Source of the DNA: Nitrososphaerota archaeon
Lineage (GTDB): Archaea > Thermoproteota > Nitrososphaeria > Nitrososphaerales > Nitrosopumilaceae
NCBI GenBank assembly: GCA_027315065.1
Contig: DAHUYT010000015.1
Location: 1-44,314 of the forward strand
Direction of reading: 5' to 3'
Length of the DNA: 44,314 bases
Part shown: one piece after another, positions 6,625 to 25,172 of the stretch
Numbering within the stretch: position 1 is the first letter of the stretch
Layout of the letters: the number at the start of each line of letters is the position of its first letter
Made by a program: the position numbers and the translations under genes
The notes under the pieces: generated by a model
Databases searched by the model: none
The model's input: the letters and a program-made list of their open reading frames with translations, nothing else
What the model was told of the DNA's origin: nothing

Positions 6625-7947
6625 ATGTCTCGTTCCTCATCACGTGTTGCTTATAATGAAATACTGTCGATGCTCAAGACACATAACCAATGGTTTGCAG
6701 ATTCAATTCCATTAATTGCAAGTGAAAACATTCCAAGCCCGGCAGTTAGGGAAGCAACTATTTCTGACTTTGCAAATAGATATGCAGAAGGTTGGCCTGG
6801 TGAACGTGTCTATGCTGGATGTACCTACATAGACAAAGTAGAGTTCAAGTGCATGGAACTTGCCCAGAAGTTATTCAAGGCAGAGTTTGTGGATGTAAGG
6901 CCAATTTCTGGGGTTGTTGCTAACTTGGTGATCTATTCCGCATTTACTAATCCAGGAGATATAATGCTTGCACCATCTATTCCATCTGGTGGTCATATAT
7001 CACACGGTAAGAAGGAACATGCAGGTACTGCAGGACTTGTTCATGGACTAGATATTGAGTTTTATCCATTTGATGTAGAAGAGATGACAATTGATGTGGA
7101 CAAGACAAAGCAGAAGATACAAGAACTTGAAAAAGCAGGTAAGACCCCAAAGCTTGCGATGTTTGGGGGCTCGGTCTTTTTATTCCCACATCCAGTAAAG
7201 GAACTTGCTGATTTTCTCAAAAGTTACAATATGTTCATAAATTATGATGGAGCTCATGTTGCAGGATTAATTGCAGGCGGTCAGTTCCAAGATCCTCTCA
7301 GGGAGGGCGCGGATGCAATGACTATGAGCACCCATAAGACCTTGTTTGGTCCTCAGGGAGGAATGATATGTTCGTTTAATAAGTATAGTGACGAGATCAA
7401 AAAGGCAACTTTTCCAGGTATGACAAGCAATCATCACTTGCATCACATGGCTGGAAAGGCCATTGCGTTTACAGAGATGCTAGAATTTGGTAAAAAATAT
7501 GCAACCCAAGTAGTCAAGAATGCAAAGGCCTTGGCAGAAGCTCTGAGCTCATCTGGTTTCATGGTGCTTGGAGAGAAACGGGGATTTACAAAATCACATC
7601 AAATTGTAGTAAACGTTCTCTCATTTGGAGATGGTGGTACTATCGAAGCTGATCTAGAAAAGGCAAACATCATCATAAACAGGCAGCTTATTCCGGGAGA
7701 CATCAAGGCAGGACGCAACTACTTCCACCCGGGTGGCATGCGACTTGGAGTTGCCGAACTAACAAGACTTGGTATGAGGGAATCTCAAATGAGGCAGGTT
7801 GCAGAATTTATCAAAAATGTAGTTGTAGATAAAAAAGATAAAAAGAAGATTGCGTTAGAGGTCAAGCGATTTAGAAAAAAGTTCCAGAAAGTCCACTATT
7901 GCTTTGAGAGCAAGATGGGTGGATATGACTATGTTAGGCTTCGTTAG
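6625..7947 (+). CDS. glyA: Serine hydroxymethyltransferase
   Basis: A PLP enzyme interconverting serine and glycine with transfer of a one-carbon unit to a folate or pterin carrier. The family core is clear: IPLIASENIPSP near the N-terminus, YAEGWPGERVYAGC, the substrate region YDGAHVAGLIAGG, and the PLP lysine in MSTHKTLFGPQGG. The frame is open from a TTG at 6565, but the ATG at 6625 gives 440 residues, close to the usual archaeal size, and has a correctly spaced TATA box; I use it. The C-terminal 40 residues are Lys-rich. The stop overlaps that of the PolD large-subunit gene by four bases (TTAG). Confidence 0.95.
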   Translation: MSRSSSRVAYNEILSMLKTHNQWFADSIPLIASENIPSPAVREATISDFANRYAEGWPGERVYAGCTYIDKVEFKCMELAQKLFKAEFVDVRPISGVVANLVIYSAFTNPGDIMLAPSIPSGGHISHGKKEHAGTAGLVHGLDIEFYPFDVEEMTIDVDKTKQKIQELEKAGKTPKLAMFGGSVFLFPHPVKELADFLKSYNMFINYDGAHVAGLIAGGQFQDPLREGADAMTMSTHKTLFGPQGGMICSFNKYSDEIKKATFPGMTSNHHLHHMAGKAIAFTEMLEFGKKYATQVVKNAKALAEALSSSGFMVLGEKRGFTKSHQIVVNVLSFGDGGTIEADLEKANIIINRQLIPGDIKAGRNYFHPGGMRLGVAELTRLGMRESQMRQVAEFIKNVVVDKKDKKKIALEVKRFRKKFQKVHYCFESKMGGYDYVRLR

Positions 7948-10900
7948 GCATAATCTGTAAGTAAGGCCTGATTACTATCTTCTTTGCCAAATACAAGTTC
8001 AAGCTCGTCCAGTAAAGAGAGCACCCTTCCTCTCAGGTATGGCTCAATCCTATACTTGCCAAGCATTCTTTTTGCAATCTTGAGATATTTTTGGACAGAC
8101 GGTCTTGTCATTGTTTGAATAAGTTTGTTTTCACATTCGAGACATTTCCCCATGAGAGGAATTCTTCTATAGCTTGCACCGCATGATGTACACCTAAATG
8201 ATTGGCCGGAATATGCTCTAAGGTTTCCCATTATGTCAGGCAAAAGATGAGTAGTCATTACCATAGAAATCACTTCACTTGGGTCTACTGCATTGATCAT
8301 ATCTGCAGTCCTAATTTGCATATCTAGTTTTTCAAGAACTGATCCAAGAGTAGAATATGCGCTGCGCGATTTTGATGTAGTAAGAGTGCTAGTGATATGT
8401 GTGAATCCATAGCCAAAGAATTGTTTTTCAGTCTCTAGCCTTGATTTTAGAATTTCAACGCCTTTGATCTCGCTTGCTTTTTCTTTTTGTAGTGTAGCCT
8501 CAAAAAATGATAAGGGATAGCTGTCTACTATCTCAAAGTTATGAGCTTGCCTTTGTACTTCTTGTGGTATTACGATTGGCTGCACAAGCAATGGTGCATC
8601 CATCAGCCCTCCAATCCTGTCAGACAGGAACAATCTTGAAAAGTTGAGCAGACTATCCATCAATAGCATGATCGAGTCTGCATCACCATCCGCATCCCTT
8701 CTTTTTGCAGAGTGCCACACAGCAGTACCAAGACAGACCTGGGTATTGGTATAGCCAATGATTCTTCCCACAATTCCAACAGAGGTGTGCGGCGCAAGTC
8801 CAATTATCAGATGACCTATCAGGTCATCGGTCTTTTTTGCATCGTAGTATGTTGGATGGGCAAATAATTTTACAAGTTCTCTGTCCAGATATTGGCAAAC
8901 TAGAACCAAGCTTTCTCCGCATTCTTTTGGAATTATGACGTCTTGAGTTTTCAGTTCAATTAACTGATCGGAATTTACAAGCGGGTTGCCCTCGGTATCA
9001 TATGTGTATCCAAGCTCTACGAGTTTCTCAGGTGTTGTGCCAATCCAAGATGGCTTGAAGTGTGAGAGTGGTGCGTTTGTTGCATCGAATCTGATTGTGC
9101 CGTCCTTGAATACATTAAGATTCAAGCTCTGTCGTATGAGCCCTTTTTCCAGTGGCTCTGGCACCCGGTCTTGGTTAATGAGTTCCTTTACTCCCTTAAA
9201 TGGCTCTTGGGCCCTAACGCCGGTTCTTTCTTGTGCAGAATAAAGCAGTTCCTTGAGTGGAAATGCACGATATGAGTGAGCAGATGCTCTAACTTTACAC
9301 TTGGGACAATGAGCCTCTTCTAGTTCATCGCGGCATTTTGGACAGACAAATGTTACGATAGTCTTGGCCTTGCACCGCTGGCATGTTATACTAATTGAAG
9401 GCTGGTTGCAGTTTTTGCACATTCTGTTATTGATGTTACAGTAAAAGTTGGGTTGTTTTACTGCCTTGAGAAGATCGCGGGATGCACCACCCTTGCTTCC
9501 AACCGGAAATAGTGTATGTACTGGAGGCTTCATCTTTCGAAGTGATGCCTTTTCAGGCCTGCCGACCCTTACGCCTACTGCCGTTGAAAACTTGGGCCTT
9601 ACCTTGATTCCTGATGAGATTGAAATTATTTCTGGGACTGACAGTGTCTTATCCAATTGAATTGGCTTTCTAAAAAGCAAGTAAGAGAAAATTTTTGCCT
9701 CATCGTCTTTTAGCATAATTGTATCGCCTGTCACCTCATGGGGCACGCCAAGTTTTTCCAAGATCTCTTTTACATCTTTTTGATAAACGACCAGATTTGA
9801 TTCTATCTTGTCTGGATTGAGGATCTTTTCTAGTTCTTCAGCTGTAATCTGATCCCAATAATACAGATAGTGTGGATGGAGCCCGATTCCAAAGTTAAGC
9901 GATATCCTGAATGTCTCTTCAAGGTCTGGAACCTTGTGCATATTGCTTAATAGATCAAGGTCGTCTGGCTCGTACTTGGCAATCTTTTCTTTTAGCTCCT
10001 CAACCCAGAACTCCTCAACATATCCAGTTGGGATAAGCTCTGCATTGTTCTCAAGAAAGTCGCCATAGCTTATGAGAATGTCTCCAAGATGTAGAATTTT
10101 TTCAATGTGTGGTTTTAGCTTAATTCCGTGGGAGGTATCCCTTATCTTGACTACATTTCCATTGTCTAGCCTGACAATTGGAGTATCAATTGAATCAACA
10201 AATGCAATAGTTGAGGCCTTTCCTGGGATGTCGAGCTTTATCTGAGTGCCAACTGCAATGACGTGATCTAAAATTTCTGCAACTACTGGATGGACCCCAA
10301 CTGATGCAAAGCCTGTGTTACATGCCCTTCCATATCGTAATCTGAACCCGCCAAGTTTTTTTGGCATTGAAAGAACAGACCTGCCAGTAATTACCTCTCT
10401 CATTCTATGGGCTGCTGCATCCTCGTCTCCGGTCTGGATTGCTCCCTTTAGATCCTTGAGCCACTCCCAGCCGTCTAGTTTGAATAGATCAATTAATTTT
10501 AGCAACTTACGAGACCTGCCAATGAGCCCATCGTTGAGTACACGAAGTGCCCCTCCCCGAACTCTGTTGGTGTTTATTCTTACCATGTTTCTGTGACTTA
10601 CGATCTCAACTGGGTCGGTATCTATGCCGTTAAGCTCCACAGGAATGTTGGAAATGGTGGCTACCACATCCTCATCTGGGACATGGAACTGAAAGCTTCC
10701 TACCTCTCTTTCATAGAGGCGCAGTTCCTCTACAAATCGCCCTGTCTCATCATCGTATGAGTTGGCTTGATACTTGCCAAGTCCGGCAATCTTGCGTACG
10801 TGGTCTGCAATAAGTATGGTGGATGCTGCTTCCGTACCCCCTGCAGAACGTATGGGTCCTGCAAATGAGATGGATAAATAGTCAGAGCCGTCTGCGTTCT

Positions 10901-11318
10901 TCTTTATCTTAATCTCGCTTATTCCCTGAAGAGGGGCTATTGTCACGCCTTCAGTCACTATTGCCAGTCCTACACGCACTGCAAGGTCAAGCTTCTCTTG
11001 CAGCTCTGTCTCAGGACCGGAATACTTGCCCTGAGCTATCTCTTCTGCAAGCTTGAGTGCCGCCAGCTCCTTTGTTGTTGTCTGGATGAGTTTTCTGAGA
11101 TTTTCTGTAACGTCAATGTCGTGCATTTTGGATACACGATCAGCTAGGTCAAACGCTATCTTGGGCTCTACCATTCCAGAGGAATCGGCAAGTGTAGCCT
11201 TTGCTGCAGCAGCTTTTTCAAAAATAGAAAAGACCTCGTTTGATAGCTTGCTGTAATAATCAAAATATGATTCTGGCATTGGGACTTCCTTGAGTCTCAA
11301 TGCAATATTTTCAGACAT
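7944..11318 (-). CDS. polC: DNA polymerase D large subunit (DP2)
   Basis: Catalytic subunit of the archaeal replicative polymerase PolD, which has an RNA-polymerase-like double-psi-barrel core. It is 1124 residues with no intein, although polC is a frequent intein host in other archaea. Visible features: an N-terminal helical region and FAGPIRSAGGTEAA (about 155), a Cys cluster binding zinc at about 630-677 (CKNC, CQRC, CPKC and CPKC pairs), the catalytic acidic motif RDADGDADSIM (about 875-885), and a C-terminal zinc module CTSCGASY...CLEC (about 1043-1062). The gene begins one base after the stop of the GGGP synthase gene, with an AAGGA Shine-Dalgarno-like site before its ATG, so the pair is an operon. 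Its partner DP1 lies 4 kb away across the origin region. Confidence 0.97.
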   Translation of the reverse strand: MSENIALRLKEVPMPESYFDYYSKLSNEVFSIFEKAAAAKATLADSSGMVEPKIAFDLADRVSKMHDIDVTENLRKLIQTTTKELAALKLAEEIAQGKYSGPETELQEKLDLAVRVGLAIVTEGVTIAPLQGISEIKIKKNADGSDYLSISFAGPIRSAGGTEAASTILIADHVRKIAGLGKYQANSYDDETGRFVEELRLYEREVGSFQFHVPDEDVVATISNIPVELNGIDTDPVEIVSHRNMVRINTNRVRGGALRVLNDGLIGRSRKLLKLIDLFKLDGWEWLKDLKGAIQTGDEDAAAHRMREVITGRSVLSMPKKLGGFRLRYGRACNTGFASVGVHPVVAEILDHVIAVGTQIKLDIPGKASTIAFVDSIDTPIVRLDNGNVVKIRDTSHGIKLKPHIEKILHLGDILISYGDFLENNAELIPTGYVEEFWVEELKEKIAKYEPDDLDLLSNMHKVPDLEETFRISLNFGIGLHPHYLYYWDQITAEELEKILNPDKIESNLVVYQKDVKEILEKLGVPHEVTGDTIMLKDDEAKIFSYLLFRKPIQLDKTLSVPEIISISSGIKVRPKFSTAVGVRVGRPEKASLRKMKPPVHTLFPVGSKGGASRDLLKAVKQPNFYCNINNRMCKNCNQPSISITCQRCKAKTIVTFVCPKCRDELEEAHCPKCKVRASAHSYRAFPLKELLYSAQERTGVRAQEPFKGVKELINQDRVPEPLEKGLIRQSLNLNVFKDGTIRFDATNAPLSHFKPSWIGTTPEKLVELGYTYDTEGNPLVNSDQLIELKTQDVIIPKECGESLVLVCQYLDRELVKLFAHPTYYDAKKTDDLIGHLIIGLAPHTSVGIVGRIIGYTNTQVCLGTAVWHSAKRRDADGDADSIMLLMDSLLNFSRLFLSDRIGGLMDAPLLVQPIVIPQEVQRQAHNFEIVDSYPLSFFEATLQKEKASEIKGVEILKSRLETEKQFFGYGFTHITSTLTTSKSRSAYSTLGSVLEKLDMQIRTADMINAVDPSEVISMVMTTHLLPDIMGNLRAYSGQSFRCTSCGASYRRIPLMGKCLECENKLIQTMTRPSVQKYLKIAKRMLGKYRIEPYLRGRVLSLLDELELVFGKEDSNQALLTDYA

Positions 11319-13336: not shown

Positions 13337-13501
13337 ATGAATAGTGTGTTAGATGTTGAACAGCTCATAAAGATAACTTCGGCAGGCACGATCTCAATCC
13401 CGAAGGATATTAGGAGATACCTTGATCTTCAGAAGGGGGATTATGTCAAGGTAATAGTTGAGGGGGATCGTTTGGTTGTCAAAAAGGCGATGATTTCCTA
13501 A
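13337..13501 (+). CDS. AbrB/SpoVT-type mini DNA-binding protein
   Basis: A 54-codon gene, short but clear. Residues 11-52 form a swapped-hairpin AbrB domain: IKITSAGTISIPKDIRRYLDL, then KGDYVKVIVEGDRLVVKK. Such proteins are transcription-state regulators or antitoxins; no toxin partner is adjacent, so a regulator is more likely. A TATA-like TTATTATAAAA around 13305-13315 lies 26 bases upstream of the ATG, supporting a leaderless start. Its stop codon overlaps the converging gene's stop by four bases (CTAA). Confidence 0.8.
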   Translation: MNSVLDVEQLIKITSAGTISIPKDIRRYLDLQKGDYVKVIVEGDRLVVKKAMIS

Positions 13502-13893
13502 GTCGCAGGCCGTTCTCTTTGGGTTAGTTTGAGTATTTGGTAGCTCCATTCCTTTCCGTTTCTCTCTCTTGCTACCCGTCCCTTAAGAGTAAACCTTGAG
13601 AGGTATGTGGATATCACGCTTAGTTTGATTGGCTCCTCATACTCGTCCTCATATTTTTCAAGGATCGCTGAGGAGGTAAACTTGCCCATTGGGAAGTGCT
13701 TGTCCACAATGTTCCATATTTTGGCCCCAACGGTATCAAGTTGTACTGATTCCTCTGGCTCCTCTATATTCATTAAATCCATTAATTCGAATATCTTTAG
13801 CATCTTTTCACGGGTAACGTTGCCCTCTAGGCTAAGGTTGTACTTGGCGCCTTCTGCGTCCTCTAGGTCTATTCGTATTCGTTTTCTGGTCAT
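13498..13893 (-). CDS. Winged-helix-like protein next to the origin, unknown function
   Basis: The protein has 131 residues. An N-terminal strand-rich part (RIRIDLEDAEGAKYNLSLEG) is followed by an acidic helix (MLKIFELMDLMN) and a C-terminal domain. The pattern KIWNIVDKHFPMGKFTSSAILEKYEDEYEEPIKLSVISTYLSRFTLKGRVARERNGKEWSYQI looks like a winged helix with a recognition helix and wing. I do not recognise a named family. It is transcribed away from the origin block, and its upstream region carries several GTTAAC-containing palindromes (13906-13966) that could be its own operators. It converges on the AbrB-like gene. Confidence 0.65.
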   Translation of the reverse strand: MTRKRIRIDLEDAEGAKYNLSLEGNVTREKMLKIFELMDLMNIEEPEESVQLDTVGAKIWNIVDKHFPMGKFTSSAILEKYEDEYEEPIKLSVISTYLSRFTLKGRVARERNGKEWSYQILKLTQRERPAT

Positions 13894-13905
13894 CGTGATC
13901 GATCA

Positions 13906-13966
13906 GGTTAACACATTAACACTTGAATAGATCATAGAAGAATTGTTAACAAGTAAGTTTGTTAAC
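13906..13966. promoter_or_regulatory. GTTAAC-type palindromic sites upstream of the wHTH gene
   Basis: GGTTAACA occurs at 13907-13914. The perfect 10-base palindrome TTGTTAACAA is at 13943-13952. TTGTTAACA recurs at 13959-13967, and TTGTTAAC again at 14180-14187 inside the origin block. The 16-base spacing of the two strong sites just upstream of a DNA-binding-protein gene suggests operator use. This is an inference from the repeat alone. Confidence 0.4.
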
Positions 13967-14046
13967 ATTCACTGCGTAACCCATGCGTAGCCGCTTTTTT
14001 CATCTTAACAGGCTTCCCAGGTTTTCATCTATGAATGGGCCAAAAC

Positions 14047-14073
14047 CACGCCTAGAGTGGAAATAAAGGGGTC
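14047..14073 (+). repeat. Origin recognition box-like repeat 1
   Basis: A 27-base unit with core AGAGTGGAAATAAAGGGG. It has the two parts of an archaeal ORB: the AGTGGAAA half bound by the Orc1/Cdc6 winged helix, and the downstream G-string. It is identical to the unit at 14109. Confidence 0.75.
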
Positions 14074-14108
14074 TATTTAGGTATATTAACAATGTTAAGG
14101 ACCGTCTT

Positions 14109-14135
14109 CACGCCTAGAGTGGAAATAAAGGGGTC
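14109..14135 (+). repeat. Origin recognition box-like repeat 2
   Basis: Identical over 27 bases to the unit at 14047, in the same orientation, 62 bases start to start (close to six helical turns). The flanking bases differ, so it is a functional-type repeat and not part of a longer duplication. Confidence 0.75.
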
Positions 14136-14215
14136 ATTTCGAGTTCTTTACTACTCCATTTTAACATCATCTTCACTAATTGTTAACTTGTCTCTATGAA
14201 TACCCACACACCAAT

Positions 14216-14228
14216 ATTTCCACTCTAG
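14216..14228 (-). repeat. Inverted ORB-like half site
   Basis: On the minus strand CTAGAGTGGAAAT repeats the 5' half of the two direct ORB-like units. Its G-string is replaced by the looser GGTGTGTGGG. It faces the other two, which gives the inverted arrangement often found around archaeal unwinding elements. Confidence 0.55.
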
Positions 14229-14366
14229 CTTTATTAAAAAATATTTTTTTAAGAAAATAAAAATAATTAATGATATACTAAATTTGAATTAGTTATTCTA
14301 TTCTAATCTAATTAGTATGGTAGAATCCATATGTGGATAGAGGAGAAATGATGGTGTGTGGGTTAA

Positions 14367-15578
14367 ATGGTAAAGGATGAGATCGATGAATTACTTGATG
14401 AAATGGTACAAAGTAAACCATTATTCAAAAATAGAGAGGCGGTACATTCTGACTACACACCAGAAAATATTTTACACCGTAAAAATGAAAAAGCAGCTGT
14501 AATCAAATCATTAAGTCCTTTAACAAAAAAATCCCGCCCATCAAACTTACTTGTTTATGGCAAAACAGGAACTGGTAAGACACTCATAGTAAAAGAAATG
14601 TTGAAAAGAATAACAAATCATAATGAACTAAAATCTTTTCCAATTAAATGGATTTATTCTAACGCAAAAGAAGAAACAACACTATACGGCCTTTTAGTTC
14701 ATTTTGGTAAGGAATTAGGGCTTAAAGGAAAAGAACTTCCTCCTACCGGATTATCGATAAGTAGTGTTTTTAATAAAATAATTCAATATATAAAAGATAA
14801 CAAACTAAAAACAATATTTGTAATAGATGAAATTGATTCTCTTGTAAAACCAGATTCTAAAAAACAAGAAAAAGACATATTCTATATGTTAACACGAGCA
14901 AATACTAGACTAGATAAAGACAGTTTCTTAACAATAATAGGAATTTCAAATGACCTAACATTCAAAGAAAGACTAGATCCTCGAGTTATCAGTAGTCTCA
15001 GCGAAGAAGAAATTGTTTTCACAAATTACACTGTAGAACAAATTAATGAGATTCTACAAGAAAGAGTAAAACTAGCATTATTTCCAGATATTATAGAGCC
15101 CGCAGCACTGAATCTCTGTGCAGCAATGTCAGGACAAGAACATGGTGACGCTAGACGTGCTATTGATCTTTTACGTGTAGCTGGAGAGATTGCTGAGCGG
15201 GAACAAGCAACCAAGATCATAGAAGAACATGTAAGAAGAGCCCAACAAAAAATGGAAGAAGATAAAGTAACTACTGCACTAACATCTTACCCACTTCATG
15301 AAAAATTACTTATGATCGCAGTAATGAGATCAAACGGTTCATCTACTGGCGAAATTTATCAAACTTACAAAAATCTATGTAAAAATATACGCCAAAAAGA
15401 AGTGACTCAAAGAAGAGCCACACAAATTCTGGGCGATATAGATCTTTCAGGAATGATCACTGGAAAGATAGTGCATCAAGGAATGCACGGCAGAACAAAA
15501 AAATATACCTTAACAATCCCCCCCGATACTGTAAAAAAGGCATTCAAAGAGGACTTGGCCTTGGAAGATCTTCTATAA
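14367..15578 (+). CDS. cdc6: Orc1/Cdc6 replication initiator
   Basis: An AAA+ initiator that binds origin ORB repeats and recruits MCM. It is 403 residues, usual size. The Walker A motif GKTGTGKT is at 65-72, Walker B FVIDEIDSL at about 151-159, and sensor-1 IGISNDLTF at about 190. The C-terminal winged helix (about 310-395) carries the recognition region EVTQRRATQILGDIDLSGMI. The gene immediately follows the ORB-like repeats and is strikingly A/T-rich compared with the PolD genes. No second cdc6 is in the window. Its stop abuts the stop of the convergent DP1 gene with no bases between. Confidence 0.96.
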   Translation: MVKDEIDELLDEMVQSKPLFKNREAVHSDYTPENILHRKNEKAAVIKSLSPLTKKSRPSNLLVYGKTGTGKTLIVKEMLKRITNHNELKSFPIKWIYSNAKEETTLYGLLVHFGKELGLKGKELPPTGLSISSVFNKIIQYIKDNKLKTIFVIDEIDSLVKPDSKKQEKDIFYMLTRANTRLDKDSFLTIIGISNDLTFKERLDPRVISSLSEEEIVFTNYTVEQINEILQERVKLALFPDIIEPAALNLCAAMSGQEHGDARRAIDLLRVAGEIAEREQATKIIEEHVRRAQQKMEEDKVTTALTSYPLHEKLLMIAVMRSNGSSTGEIYQTYKNLCKNIRQKEVTQRRATQILGDIDLSGMITGKIVHQGMHGRTKKYTLTIPPDTVKKAFKEDLALEDLL

Positions 15579-17009
15579 CTAATCTTCTTTCTCGGTAAAG
15601 TCTTTTGTAAAGACCTTCATTGTGGCCAAGTTTACGATAATAGCTATTCCAGGTGTTGGGACAATGCCACCACTTGCCTGATAACCAGTCTGGCTCTGCC
15701 AGGCTCCGGAATTGACTATCAGTGTTCCCTTGTACATGTCAAGATCAACTACATGAACATGACCAGAATGAAAGATATCGGGAACTTCATTTATCACCAT
15801 AAAGTCTTCAAGCTCAGGAGCAATTGGGGTACGTTTTCCATAGATCGGACTGAGATGTCGTGTCCTCAACAATGCCCGCATTGCTCTTGCTGGCTGTGCA
15901 TAGCTTAGACCTGGAGTAGTTCCTACTACATCATCAAGGCTCTGGCCATGAAACATCAATACCTTTACACCATTAAGATCCAAAAACGCAGGGTTTCCTA
16001 ACATGAAAAAATTCTCTCTATTCCACAAACTCATATTGTATTTTTCTGGTATGGCAGGCTGGGGAAGAGCCCTTCTACCCGGGTCATGGTTACCGGGAAT
16101 TATGAAGGTCTTGATATGTTTTGGAATCTTATCTAACATCTGAGCAGCCTTTTCCATCTGACCGTCTATATCCATGATAAGCAACTCTTTGTCTTGATTT
16201 GGAAATATTCCAACCCCATCAATTATATCTCCACATATCAAGAGAAACCGGACTTTTCTTGCCACTGGATCGGGGCTTGAAAGCCAAGAAATAAACTCAG
16301 TAAACTCTTTTTCCATAAAATATCTGCTACCTATGTGAATGTCTGATATCAGAACAGCATATGCATCAGTCTCTGAGCGATTTACTATGTGATCTGGGAC
16401 ATCTGGAACCAAAAGCTCCTTTATGATAAATCCGCCATTCTTGCCATTTGTAATACCTACCATTACGAATTGGTCCATTAAAAGCGAGTTTGCAGTGTCC
16501 TGTAACTCTTGATTAAACACTAGAACCTCTACAGAACCGGTAGGATCATCTATTACCAATTTGGTTACATTCCGGTCAATCTTTCTATCCATTAAAAGGC
16601 CTGCAACAAATATGTCCTCACCAAGCTTACCCTCTGTCACATTTTTAATTGGCGTCAGTTTTTTTGCCTGTGATCTCTGCATCATTATTTTAAGCAATTT
16701 CGAATATCTATCAGAAAAAAGGGCCATAAAACCATCTATCCCCTCTGCTGATGTGATCTTCTTTGTAGGATCAAATAATATTTCATGCCTATCCTCAATA
16801 CTGCCACTAACTTCTGATTCTACAAACATTTTGAGGTCGCTCTGGTTTATTAAAAACAAATTTTGCTTTGCCTTTTCACGAACGACCTGCTTAATTATAT
16901 TCTGTAGTTCCTTCACATCTATCTTTTCTAATATCTTAAAAGCATCAGGATGAATCTGAAAACCTTTACTCAAAGCATATGTTATTGCTGAGGATACCTC
17001 TTCTTTCAC
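15579..17009 (-). CDS. polB: DNA polymerase D small subunit (DP1), 3'-5' exonuclease
   Basis: Proofreading subunit of PolD. An N-terminal helical/linker part is followed by an OB fold (about 115-195) and a calcineurin-like phosphoesterase domain. All metal motifs are visible in order: SDIHIGS (about 221), GDIIDG (about 259), GNHDPGRR (about 304), FHGQSLDD (about 351) and GHVHVVD (about 415). Intact His and Asp ligands indicate an active Mre11-like nuclease, as in archaeal DP1. It starts at GTG, with an A/T-rich box (ATATATTA, about 17023-17032) upstream. Adjacency of cdc6 and DP1 is a known arrangement in several archaeal lineages. Confidence 0.96.
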   Translation of the reverse strand: MKEEVSSAITYALSKGFQIHPDAFKILEKIDVKELQNIIKQVVREKAKQNLFLINQSDLKMFVESEVSGSIEDRHEILFDPTKKITSAEGIDGFMALFSDRYSKLLKIMMQRSQAKKLTPIKNVTEGKLGEDIFVAGLLMDRKIDRNVTKLVIDDPTGSVEVLVFNQELQDTANSLLMDQFVMVGITNGKNGGFIIKELLVPDVPDHIVNRSETDAYAVLISDIHIGSRYFMEKEFTEFISWLSSPDPVARKVRFLLICGDIIDGVGIFPNQDKELLIMDIDGQMEKAAQMLDKIPKHIKTFIIPGNHDPGRRALPQPAIPEKYNMSLWNRENFFMLGNPAFLDLNGVKVLMFHGQSLDDVVGTTPGLSYAQPARAMRALLRTRHLSPIYGKRTPIAPELEDFMVINEVPDIFHSGHVHVVDLDMYKGTLIVNSGAWQSQTGYQASGGIVPTPGIAIIVNLATMKVFTKDFTEKED

Positions 17010-23030: not shown

Positions 23031-25172
23031 ATGAGTGAAATTACATTAAAAGTTGCGGAGGCATCTCAACGACATGTAGGCAAAGGCATTGCCGTAATTG
23101 ATCCCAAAGTTGTTGAAGACAATAATTGGGAAACTGGTAATATCTTAGAACTAGTAGGAAATAGGAAAAGCCACACAAAGCTGTGGCCTGGTTCTGCTGA
23201 ACAATATGGGACTGGAATAATAAAGATAGATGGAATTACAAGACAAAACATTGGCGCCGGAATAGGCGAGAAAATTTCTGTAAAAAGAGTTGATGCACAG
23301 AAAGCCAAACAAGTAACAGTATCTCCAATTGAAAAACTCAGTGCCGAAGGCTTGCAAGAATATATGCAGGCAAACTACATTGGTCACGTACTAACTATTG
23401 GCGATACTCTTATAGTAACCACACAACTTGGTGGGAAAACCCAGCTTGTGATAACAAGTACTATGCCATCTGGAAAACCCATTGTGATCACAGAGGAAAC
23501 TGAATTCAAACTGGGATCAATGACTAAAGCCATTGATAACTCAGTACCTAGAATTACATATGATGACCTAGGAGGCCTCAAAAATGAGGTACAAAAGATA
23601 CGTGAAATGGTAGAACTTCCTATGCGACATCCGGAACTATTTGAGAAGATTGGAGTTGAGGCGCCAAAGGGCGTCCTGCTTTATGGACCCCCAGGCACTG
23701 GAAAGACGCTGCTAGCAAAGGCGGTGGCAGGTGAGACCAACTCTCACTTTATCTCAATCAGCGGTCCTGAAATAATAGGTAAATTTTATGGTGAGAGCGA
23801 GGAAAGACTACGTGAACTATTCAAACAGGCAGAAGAAAACACGCCAAGCATAATTTTCATAGATGAAGTTGATTCGATTGCTCCAAAGCGAGAGGAAGTA
23901 ACCGGAGAGGTAGAAAAAAGAGTGGTATCTCAGTTGTTGACATTAATGGACGGAATGAAATCGCGGGGAAAAGTTGTAGTAATTGCTGCCACCAACAGAC
24001 CGGATTCGATTGATCCTGCGCTTAGAAGACCTGGAAGATTTGATCGTGAAATTGAGATAGGAATACCAGATGCAACTGGAAGAAAAGATATACTTGATAT
24101 CCATACGCGAGGAATGCCACTTGAAGATAAAGTCAACTTGGAACAAATCGCAAGGGTGACACATGGATTTGTTGGAGCAGACCTTGAGATTCTTGCAAAA
24201 GAAGCCGCAATGAGGTCCTTGCGAAGAATATTACCTGATATTGATTTAGAGGAAGAAAAGATTCCTGCAGAAGTTTTACAAAAGATTGTGATTACTGAGA
24301 GCGATTTTAAAGATGCTCTAAAAGAAGTAAGGCCATCTGCACTAAGGGAAGTTCTAGTTCAAGTTCCTAATGTTACATGGGAGGATGTTGGCGGGCTGGA
24401 ATCATTAAAGGATGAACTTTACGAGGCAGTAGAATGGCCTTTGAAACACAAAGAGGCATTTGAATACACGGATGTTAAAACACCAAAAGGCATTCTGCTT
24501 TATGGACCCCCAGGCACTGGAAAGACGCTCATTGCAAAGGCAGTAGCACATACCGCAGAATCTAATTTCATAAGCATCAAGGGACCCGAATTACTCTCAA
24601 AATGGGTTGGAGAATCAGAAAAAGGCATACGTGAAATCTTCAGAAAAGCGCGCCAGGCTGCTCCGTGCATAATATTTCTCGATGAGATGGATTCTCTAGC
24701 ACCAAGCAGAAGCTCTGGCAGCTCAGACTCACATGTTACGGAAAGAATAGTCTCTCAGCTCTTGACAGAGATTGACGGTCTTGAAGAACTACACAATGTA
24801 TTAGTGATTGGGGCTACTAACAGAGTAGACTTGATAGACAGTGCATTGCTAAGGCCCGGTAGATTCGACAGGATATTGGAAGTGCCGTTACCAGACTCAA
24901 AAGGACGTGAACACATCTTTAAGATACACACCAAAAACAAGCCGCTTGTAAATGATGTGGACATTGCAAAACTTGTAGAGCTGGCTGATGGGTTCAGCGG
25001 TGCAGAAATTGAGAGTGTATGCAACAGAGCAGCCATGAGCGCAATAAGGAGATACGTCAACAAAGGAGAAAAATCTGTCAAATCGATAAAGATAACTCAG
25101 GAAGACCTTGAAAATGCAATTGAAAAATTACGACCAGGAAAGGTTACGCCGCGACAAGCTGTTACATTATAG
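23031..25172 (+). CDS. cdc48: Cdc48/VAT (p97) AAA+ ATPase
   Basis: A protein unfoldase that feeds substrates to the archaeal proteasome. The N-domain (about 1-180, double-psi barrel plus a second subdomain) is followed by two AAA+ rings. D1 has Walker A GPPGTGKT (about 219) and Walker [12 protein letters not shown]2 has Walker A at about 492 and [10 protein letters not shown]. Arginine fingers follow as RRPGRFDRE and LRPGRFDR. The second-region-of-homology asparagines ([10 protein letters not shown] and [10 protein letters not shown]) are intact, so both rings should be active. The C-terminus lacks the extended eukaryotic adaptor tail. Operon with hsp20, followed 12 bases later by the radical SAM gene. 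Confidence 0.96.

Follow-up and report, generated by a model that had tools for sequence, protein, structure and literature searches.

A probable oriC1-type replication origin beside a divergent cdc6 gene in a Nitrosotalea species

Positions 13894-14366 of a 44,314-nucleotide archaeal contig (hereafter the window) very probably form the chromosomal replication origin, of the oriC1 type, of a Nitrosotalea species, a soil ammonia-oxidising archaeon. The assignment is based on features established from the sequence, namely the boxes, their spacing and polarity, the A/T element, the uniqueness of the arrangement in the genome, its conservation and the sole adjacent cdc6 gene. Several ORBs match the archaeal motif, an A/T element is flanked by inverted ORBs, an orc1/cdc6 gene is adjacent and the box cluster is confined to one place in the genome, as is characteristic of oriC1-type origins. 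The initial annotation of the locus had called it oriC, and the call is upheld by the ORB-type boxes, the flanked A/T element, the single neighbouring cdc6, the absence of the box elsewhere and the conserved arrangement. Origins of this kind are already known; what is new here is a mosaic initiator gene, a layer of TTAAC words accompanied by a neighbour gene found class-wide, and an inverted core in a sister genus. With this locus the ammonia-oxidising archaea gain a well-supported origin, Nitrosopumilus maritimus being otherwise the only one of them named as mapped in the literature cited here.

The locus consists of two outer boxes in tandem, an inverted inner box, an A/T-rich element, a second inner box and cdc6, with ORB1, ORB2, ORB4 and cdc6 all pointing towards the right and ORB3 towards the left. 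ORB1 (14047-14073, plus strand) and ORB2 (14109-14135, plus strand) are exact copies of the 27-bp sequence CACGCCTAGAGTGGAAATAAAGGGGTC, with a start-to-start distance of 62 bp, just as had been annotated. The core of the repeat, AGAGTGGAAATAAAGGGG, occurs in 2 exact copies in the whole genome (1.74 Mb), and allowing up to 3 mismatches adds a single site genome-wide, the inverted one at 14209-14226. A genome-wide count of the core had been proposed in the initial annotation, with copies scattered through the genome taken as evidence against an origin, and no such scatter is seen. Repeat counts in the genome and the contig rule out chance as the source of the 27-bp repeats. The only other repeated 27-mers in the 44-kb contig belong to one longer repeat within the open reading frame at 23031-25172, whose copies, from 23676 and 24495 onward, agree perfectly over 35 bp or more and probably represent the paired ATPase domains of a tandem AAA protein.

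The general archaeal ORB motif used by Ori-Finder 2 is TCCA[CG]T[TG]GAAA[TC][GA]AAGGGGT (PMC4164010). Compared with this motif, TAGAGTGGAAATAAAGGGGT of the 27-bp repeats has mismatches at 2 of the first five positions only, and TGGAAATAAAGGGGT equals one of the allowed forms. The 5' half of the general motif reads TCCA whereas the Nitrosotalea box has TAGA, so that 2 of the 5 bases of the first half-site are changed; the ORB-like layout previously ascribed to the repeats thus agrees with the motif save for two bases at the start. The canonical TCCAGTGGAAA start is frequent in other families of the Nitrososphaeria and has been lost in the Nitrosopumilaceae.

The exact identity of the two outer boxes had been taken as a sign of strong selection. 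Since the ORB1 and ORB2 cores (22 bp compared) are identical in 17 of 50 distinct pairs from relatives, perfect identity is by itself unremarkable. The mean mismatch between ORB1 and ORB2 is 1.48 within a genome versus 2.38 when boxes are shuffled between genomes (minimum 2.02 in 2000 shuffles), although this shuffle ignores kinship and the within-genome likeness is indicative only. ORB1 and ORB2 therefore tend to change together, and their identity points to selection, to co-evolution of both boxes, or to both.

ORB3 occupies 14202-14228 on the minus strand, where it reads CTAGAGTGGAAATATTGGTGTGTGGGT, and its G-string is present as GGTGTGTGGGT. It forms an inverted repeat with ORB1 and ORB2 and is conserved in relatives. 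The initial annotation recognized the inverted orientation of this site but described it as a half site at 14216, when it is in fact a complete box; the fourth box was overlooked, so that besides the two repeats, correctly noted, the inventory comes to four boxes rather than two and a half. This fourth box, ORB4 (14338-14363, plus strand; TAGAGGAGAAATGATGGTGTGTGGGT), is weak and forms an inverted repeat with ORB3 (26 nt at 85%). ORB4 is likewise weak in Nitrosotalea generally, and the full TGGAAA core is kept at the same box in some relatives (loci L034 and L041). Between the inner boxes lies the presumed duplex unwinding element (14229-14337), which is 83% A/T and overlaps the contig's A/T maximum for any 109 bp, starting at 14214; the almost pure A/T stretch reported before cdc6 corresponds to this element. 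Its right-hand part, 14263-14337, is 97% identical to the nearest genome, G063.

The arrangement is conserved well beyond the window. With up to 3 mismatches allowed, 31 of 37 congeners carry the box pattern, each in a single cluster, G069 alone having a stray site as well, and a reversed-pattern control gave one match in all 37 congeners together. The spacing between ORB1 and ORB2 is 61 or 62 bp in all 98 family loci in which both boxes were parsed, these loci amounting to 50 distinct box pairs with some genomes represented twice. In other families of the class, a box tandem at about 60-62 bp is present in most loci examined, and in some (e.g. L201, L218 and L223) none was found by a simple scan. 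In several genera ORB4 and cdc6 are separated by a segment of approximately 100-200 bp that contains several GATC words and shows a recurring pattern (L013, L019, L021, L034, L035, L037, L038, L040, L045 and L047); this segment is absent from the window. In G049 an open frame appears to separate the origin from cdc6 (L048; contig C11, about 144.8-145.1 kb).

One variant of the arrangement bears on how the inner boxes are organized. In G005, a genome of the sister genus g6, the entire A/T core lies in inverted orientation between the inner boxes (contig C9, about 418.4-418.8 kb; L037 and L227). On its left side, the G005 sequence aligns forward with that of the relative L114 as far as the G-string of box 3; the stretch bounded by this G-string and that of the other inner box aligns instead as the reverse complement, at 90% over 164 columns. 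No other inverted core was present among 117 loci in which the core could be recognised, G005 accounting for two of them. It is possible that the inverted core is an assembly error instead of a real inversion. If real, the inversion supports the view that ORB3, the A/T element and ORB4 behave as one symmetric module, and it suggests that the symmetric geometry of the three is important and the orientation of the A/T element unimportant.

The cdc6 (orc1) gene lies at 14367-15578 on the plus strand and encodes a 403-residue protein with the Pfam domains Cdc6_lid and Cdc6_C, for which the nearest solved structures are Sulfolobus Cdc6-1 (2qby_A) and 2v1u_A. A protein search of the genome, which is 97.7% complete, gave no other Cdc6 match. 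The gene had been accepted at face value, and while it is clearly an Orc1/Cdc6 gene it is also the most unusual part of the locus. Its product is 68-70% identical to those of all congeners and of the sister genus, which are 83-100% identical among themselves. It deviates at 17 of 165 columns that are conserved at 98% or more, with the Walker A, Walker B and GISND motifs and the winged-helix motifs TQRR and HGRTKK all intact. The NCBIfam Orc1 equivalog model does not single the protein out because its congeners likewise score below the cut-off.

The divergence is confined to the gene, with an abrupt transition at each end. Synteny with G063 is extensive, with 36 of 37 tested open reading frames matching one G063 contig stretch in nearly the same order, and among the 36 matched frames cdc6 has the lowest identity (67.8%), the rest ranging from 78 to 97% and the neighbours being about 91%. 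At the DNA level, identity to G063 in 75-column steps is 83-97% over 14039-14337, falls to 53-81% through cdc6, and returns to 81-95% from about 15535 on. The gene for the small subunit of DNA polymerase D (DP1; 15579-17009, minus strand; Pfam DNA_pol_E_B and Metallophos), which is 92% identical to G063, served as a control for gene divergence. The proportion of synonymous differences (pS, Nei-Gojobori) relative to G063 is 0.79 for cdc6, whose synonymous sites are saturated, versus 0.34 for the winged-helix gene on the other side of the origin and 0.43 for DP1. In addition, the first 600 nt of cdc6 have a G+C content of 29% versus 31-48% in the relatives compared.

Phylogenies give the same contrast. 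In the DP1 and winged-helix trees the window groups with G063, G158 and G075 on branches of 0.04-0.05, whereas in the Cdc6 tree its branch is 0.93 long and falls within the clade formed by Nitrosotalea and g6 or at the base of that clade. Forcing the species-tree position on Cdc6 in a smaller set of sequences cost 12 log units (AU p 0.034), a result which long-branch effects reduce to moderate evidence. The cdc6 coding sequence has probably been replaced by a divergent allele with the boxes and the A/T element retained, a reading that stands separately from the assignment of the origin. Recombination would have ended at the borders of the gene, and the source would be an unsampled lineage related to the Nitrosotalea plus g6 clade; a search for a donor among GTDB genomes, viral contigs, phages and plasmids gave nothing closer. 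Under such a replacement the new initiator must be able to read the old boxes. Reviews describe cognate pairs of initiators and origins for haloarchaea and Sulfolobus, and the mosaic cdc6 would amount to a natural initiator-swap experiment on whether initiator and origin must evolve as such pairs.

Two other accounts of the divergent gene have to be weighed against replacement. The divergent cdc6 could be an assembly artefact in which two co-occurring strains were merged at stretches common to both, and in keeping with this the genome is a draft in 86 contigs and the drop in identity starts and stops at short conserved stretches. Such an artefact is nevertheless unlikely, as the contig would have to switch out and back inside 1.2 kb, the genome at its level of completeness has one intact cdc6 and lacks a second copy, and a strain with such a cdc6 would still be unsampled and unusual. 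Unusually fast evolution in place, with no replacement, would be consistent with the long terminal branch and its position in the Cdc6 tree, as well as with an identity to outgroups that is also lower than that of congeners (about 62% versus 72%). Faster protein evolution alone does not produce the synonymous saturation seen in cdc6 and absent from its neighbours, which disfavours this account as the whole story, and placement beside G063 is rejected by the AU test. Fast evolution in place is accordingly judged quite improbable, although the Cdc6 branch is long even if the gene came from outside, as the replacement reading holds.

Comparison with known origins places the locus in a familiar framework. 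N. maritimus, which belongs to the same family as the window organism, is reported to have a single chromosomal origin (Pelve et al. 2013, as cited in PMC4010727 and PMC5333045), and the Nitrosopumilus relatives compared have the box plan of the window. The window differs in that the 5' half of its boxes is TAGA, versus the general TCCA, and in its divergent type of cdc6. Sulfolobus oriC1, as described in PMC12141716 (Orc1-1, ORB1-3 and ucm), likewise has an inverted ORB pair around an A/T element beside the initiator gene; there, inverted ORB2 and ORB3 flank the duplex unwinding element and each is required. Sulfolobus is also the source of Cdc6-1, the closest structure noted above. In contrast to oriC1 as set out in that account, the window has two outer tandem boxes at a fixed 61-62 bp, and ucm lies inside the A/T element of Sulfolobus while the TTAAC array of the window lies outside it.

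Based on studied archaea, Cdc6 produced from the adjoining downstream gene would bind the tandem ORB1 and ORB2 and the inverted pair ORB3 and ORB4. Cdc6 at ORB3 and ORB4 would then open the intervening A/T stretch, on which MCM helicases would be loaded facing opposite directions, by analogy with Sulfolobus oriC1, and the origin would fire. ORB1 and ORB2 might add further Cdc6 or tune firing.

The boxes could instead be a mere operator of the cdc6 promoter, through which Cdc6 represses its own gene while replication starts elsewhere. The boxes are immediately upstream of cdc6, with ORB4 stopping 3 bp short of the start codon, and skew analysis of a complete congener, G008, gave no signal of the kind that would place an origin: in 40 samples of 20 kb covering 44% of that genome, the best two-arc split was no better than permutations for GC skew and only slightly better than permutations for AT skew, a result that weighs neither for nor against the origin. 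An operator would not account for the two outer boxes 230-320 bp upstream together with a flanked A/T element, and the genome is without another box cluster able to act as origin. In addition, N. maritimus has a single mapped origin and its relatives share the plan, and the boxes persist where an open reading frame (G049) or a segment of 100-200 bp (several genera) separates them from cdc6. A role as operator only is therefore very unlikely, while autoregulation of cdc6 in addition to origin function may occur. An origin derived from an integrated plasmid or virus can for practical purposes be set aside, for although archaeal plasmids and viruses encode Orc1/Cdc6, plasmid and viral Cdc6 matches are less than 35% identical, the layout is conserved across the class, and the site lies between DNA polymerase D genes in a region whose conserved synteny with G063 rules out a mobile-element origin.

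A second layer of short words is interleaved with the boxes. The stretch 13894-14200 contains 13 TTAAC/GTTAA words versus 0.64 expected from the contig, which is 20 times the contig density. Every other 307-bp stretch of the contig has 4 or fewer, and dinucleotide shuffles yield 1.35 words on average and never more than 7. The array recurs in relatives, the median number of words also being 13 in the 300 bp left of ORB3 in 118 related loci. Between ORB1 and ORB2, at 14086-14098, the words form the dyad TTAACAATGTTAA, the only TTAACANTGTTAA match in the genome, and most of the congeners in which the origin was assembled have a TTAACANTGTTAA dyad in the corresponding position. The pattern was considered as a unique mark of the origin in every congener and rejected, as many congeners have extra matches. 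These occur at about the rate of a reversed-pattern control, so that only the constant position at the origin is informative.

The origin is bordered on its other side by a gene, divergent from cdc6, for an unclassified winged-helix protein of 131 residues (13498-13893, minus strand). The gene was detected in 143 of 150 genomes of the class (39 of 42 genera), and among 30 more distant cdc6 loci it is located upstream of cdc6 in 24 and is divergently oriented in 23. No Pfam or NCBIfam model matches the protein above its cut-off. The PF03965 (BlaI/MecI) profile scores 16.5 bits on the window protein, below the curated cut-off of 22.6, and as Penicillinase_R the same family weakly matches 15 of 38 relatives (best 3.1e-6). 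An AlphaFold2 model has a confident C-terminal winged helix, mostly with pLDDT above 90, and a less certain N-terminal strand-strand-helix part. A Foldseek search with this model returned generic winged-helix repressors (best E 4e-3), MecI among the matches. The protein thus has the winged-helix fold in common with BlaI/MecI repressors but differs from them in its additional N-terminal part, its location at an origin and its sub-cut-off scores.

One hypothesis is that the 131-residue protein binds the TTAAC dyads. A broader and rather speculative proposal is that Nitrososphaeria origins serve two proteins, with Cdc6 on the ORBs and the 131-residue protein on interleaved TTAAC dyads, and that in the window recombination exchanged only the Cdc6 half, leaving the boxes, the array and the second protein in place. 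Against the pairing of the protein with the TTAAC words, some families that have the gene (f8 and f10) have few or no such words near the origin. Taken together, the TTAAC array and the winged-helix gene hint at an origin factor that may so far have gone unrecognised, similar in principle to the UBP/ucm pair of Sulfolobus. The origin region lies between the genes for the two subunits of DNA polymerase D, at 7944-11318 and 15579-17009, each on the minus strand.
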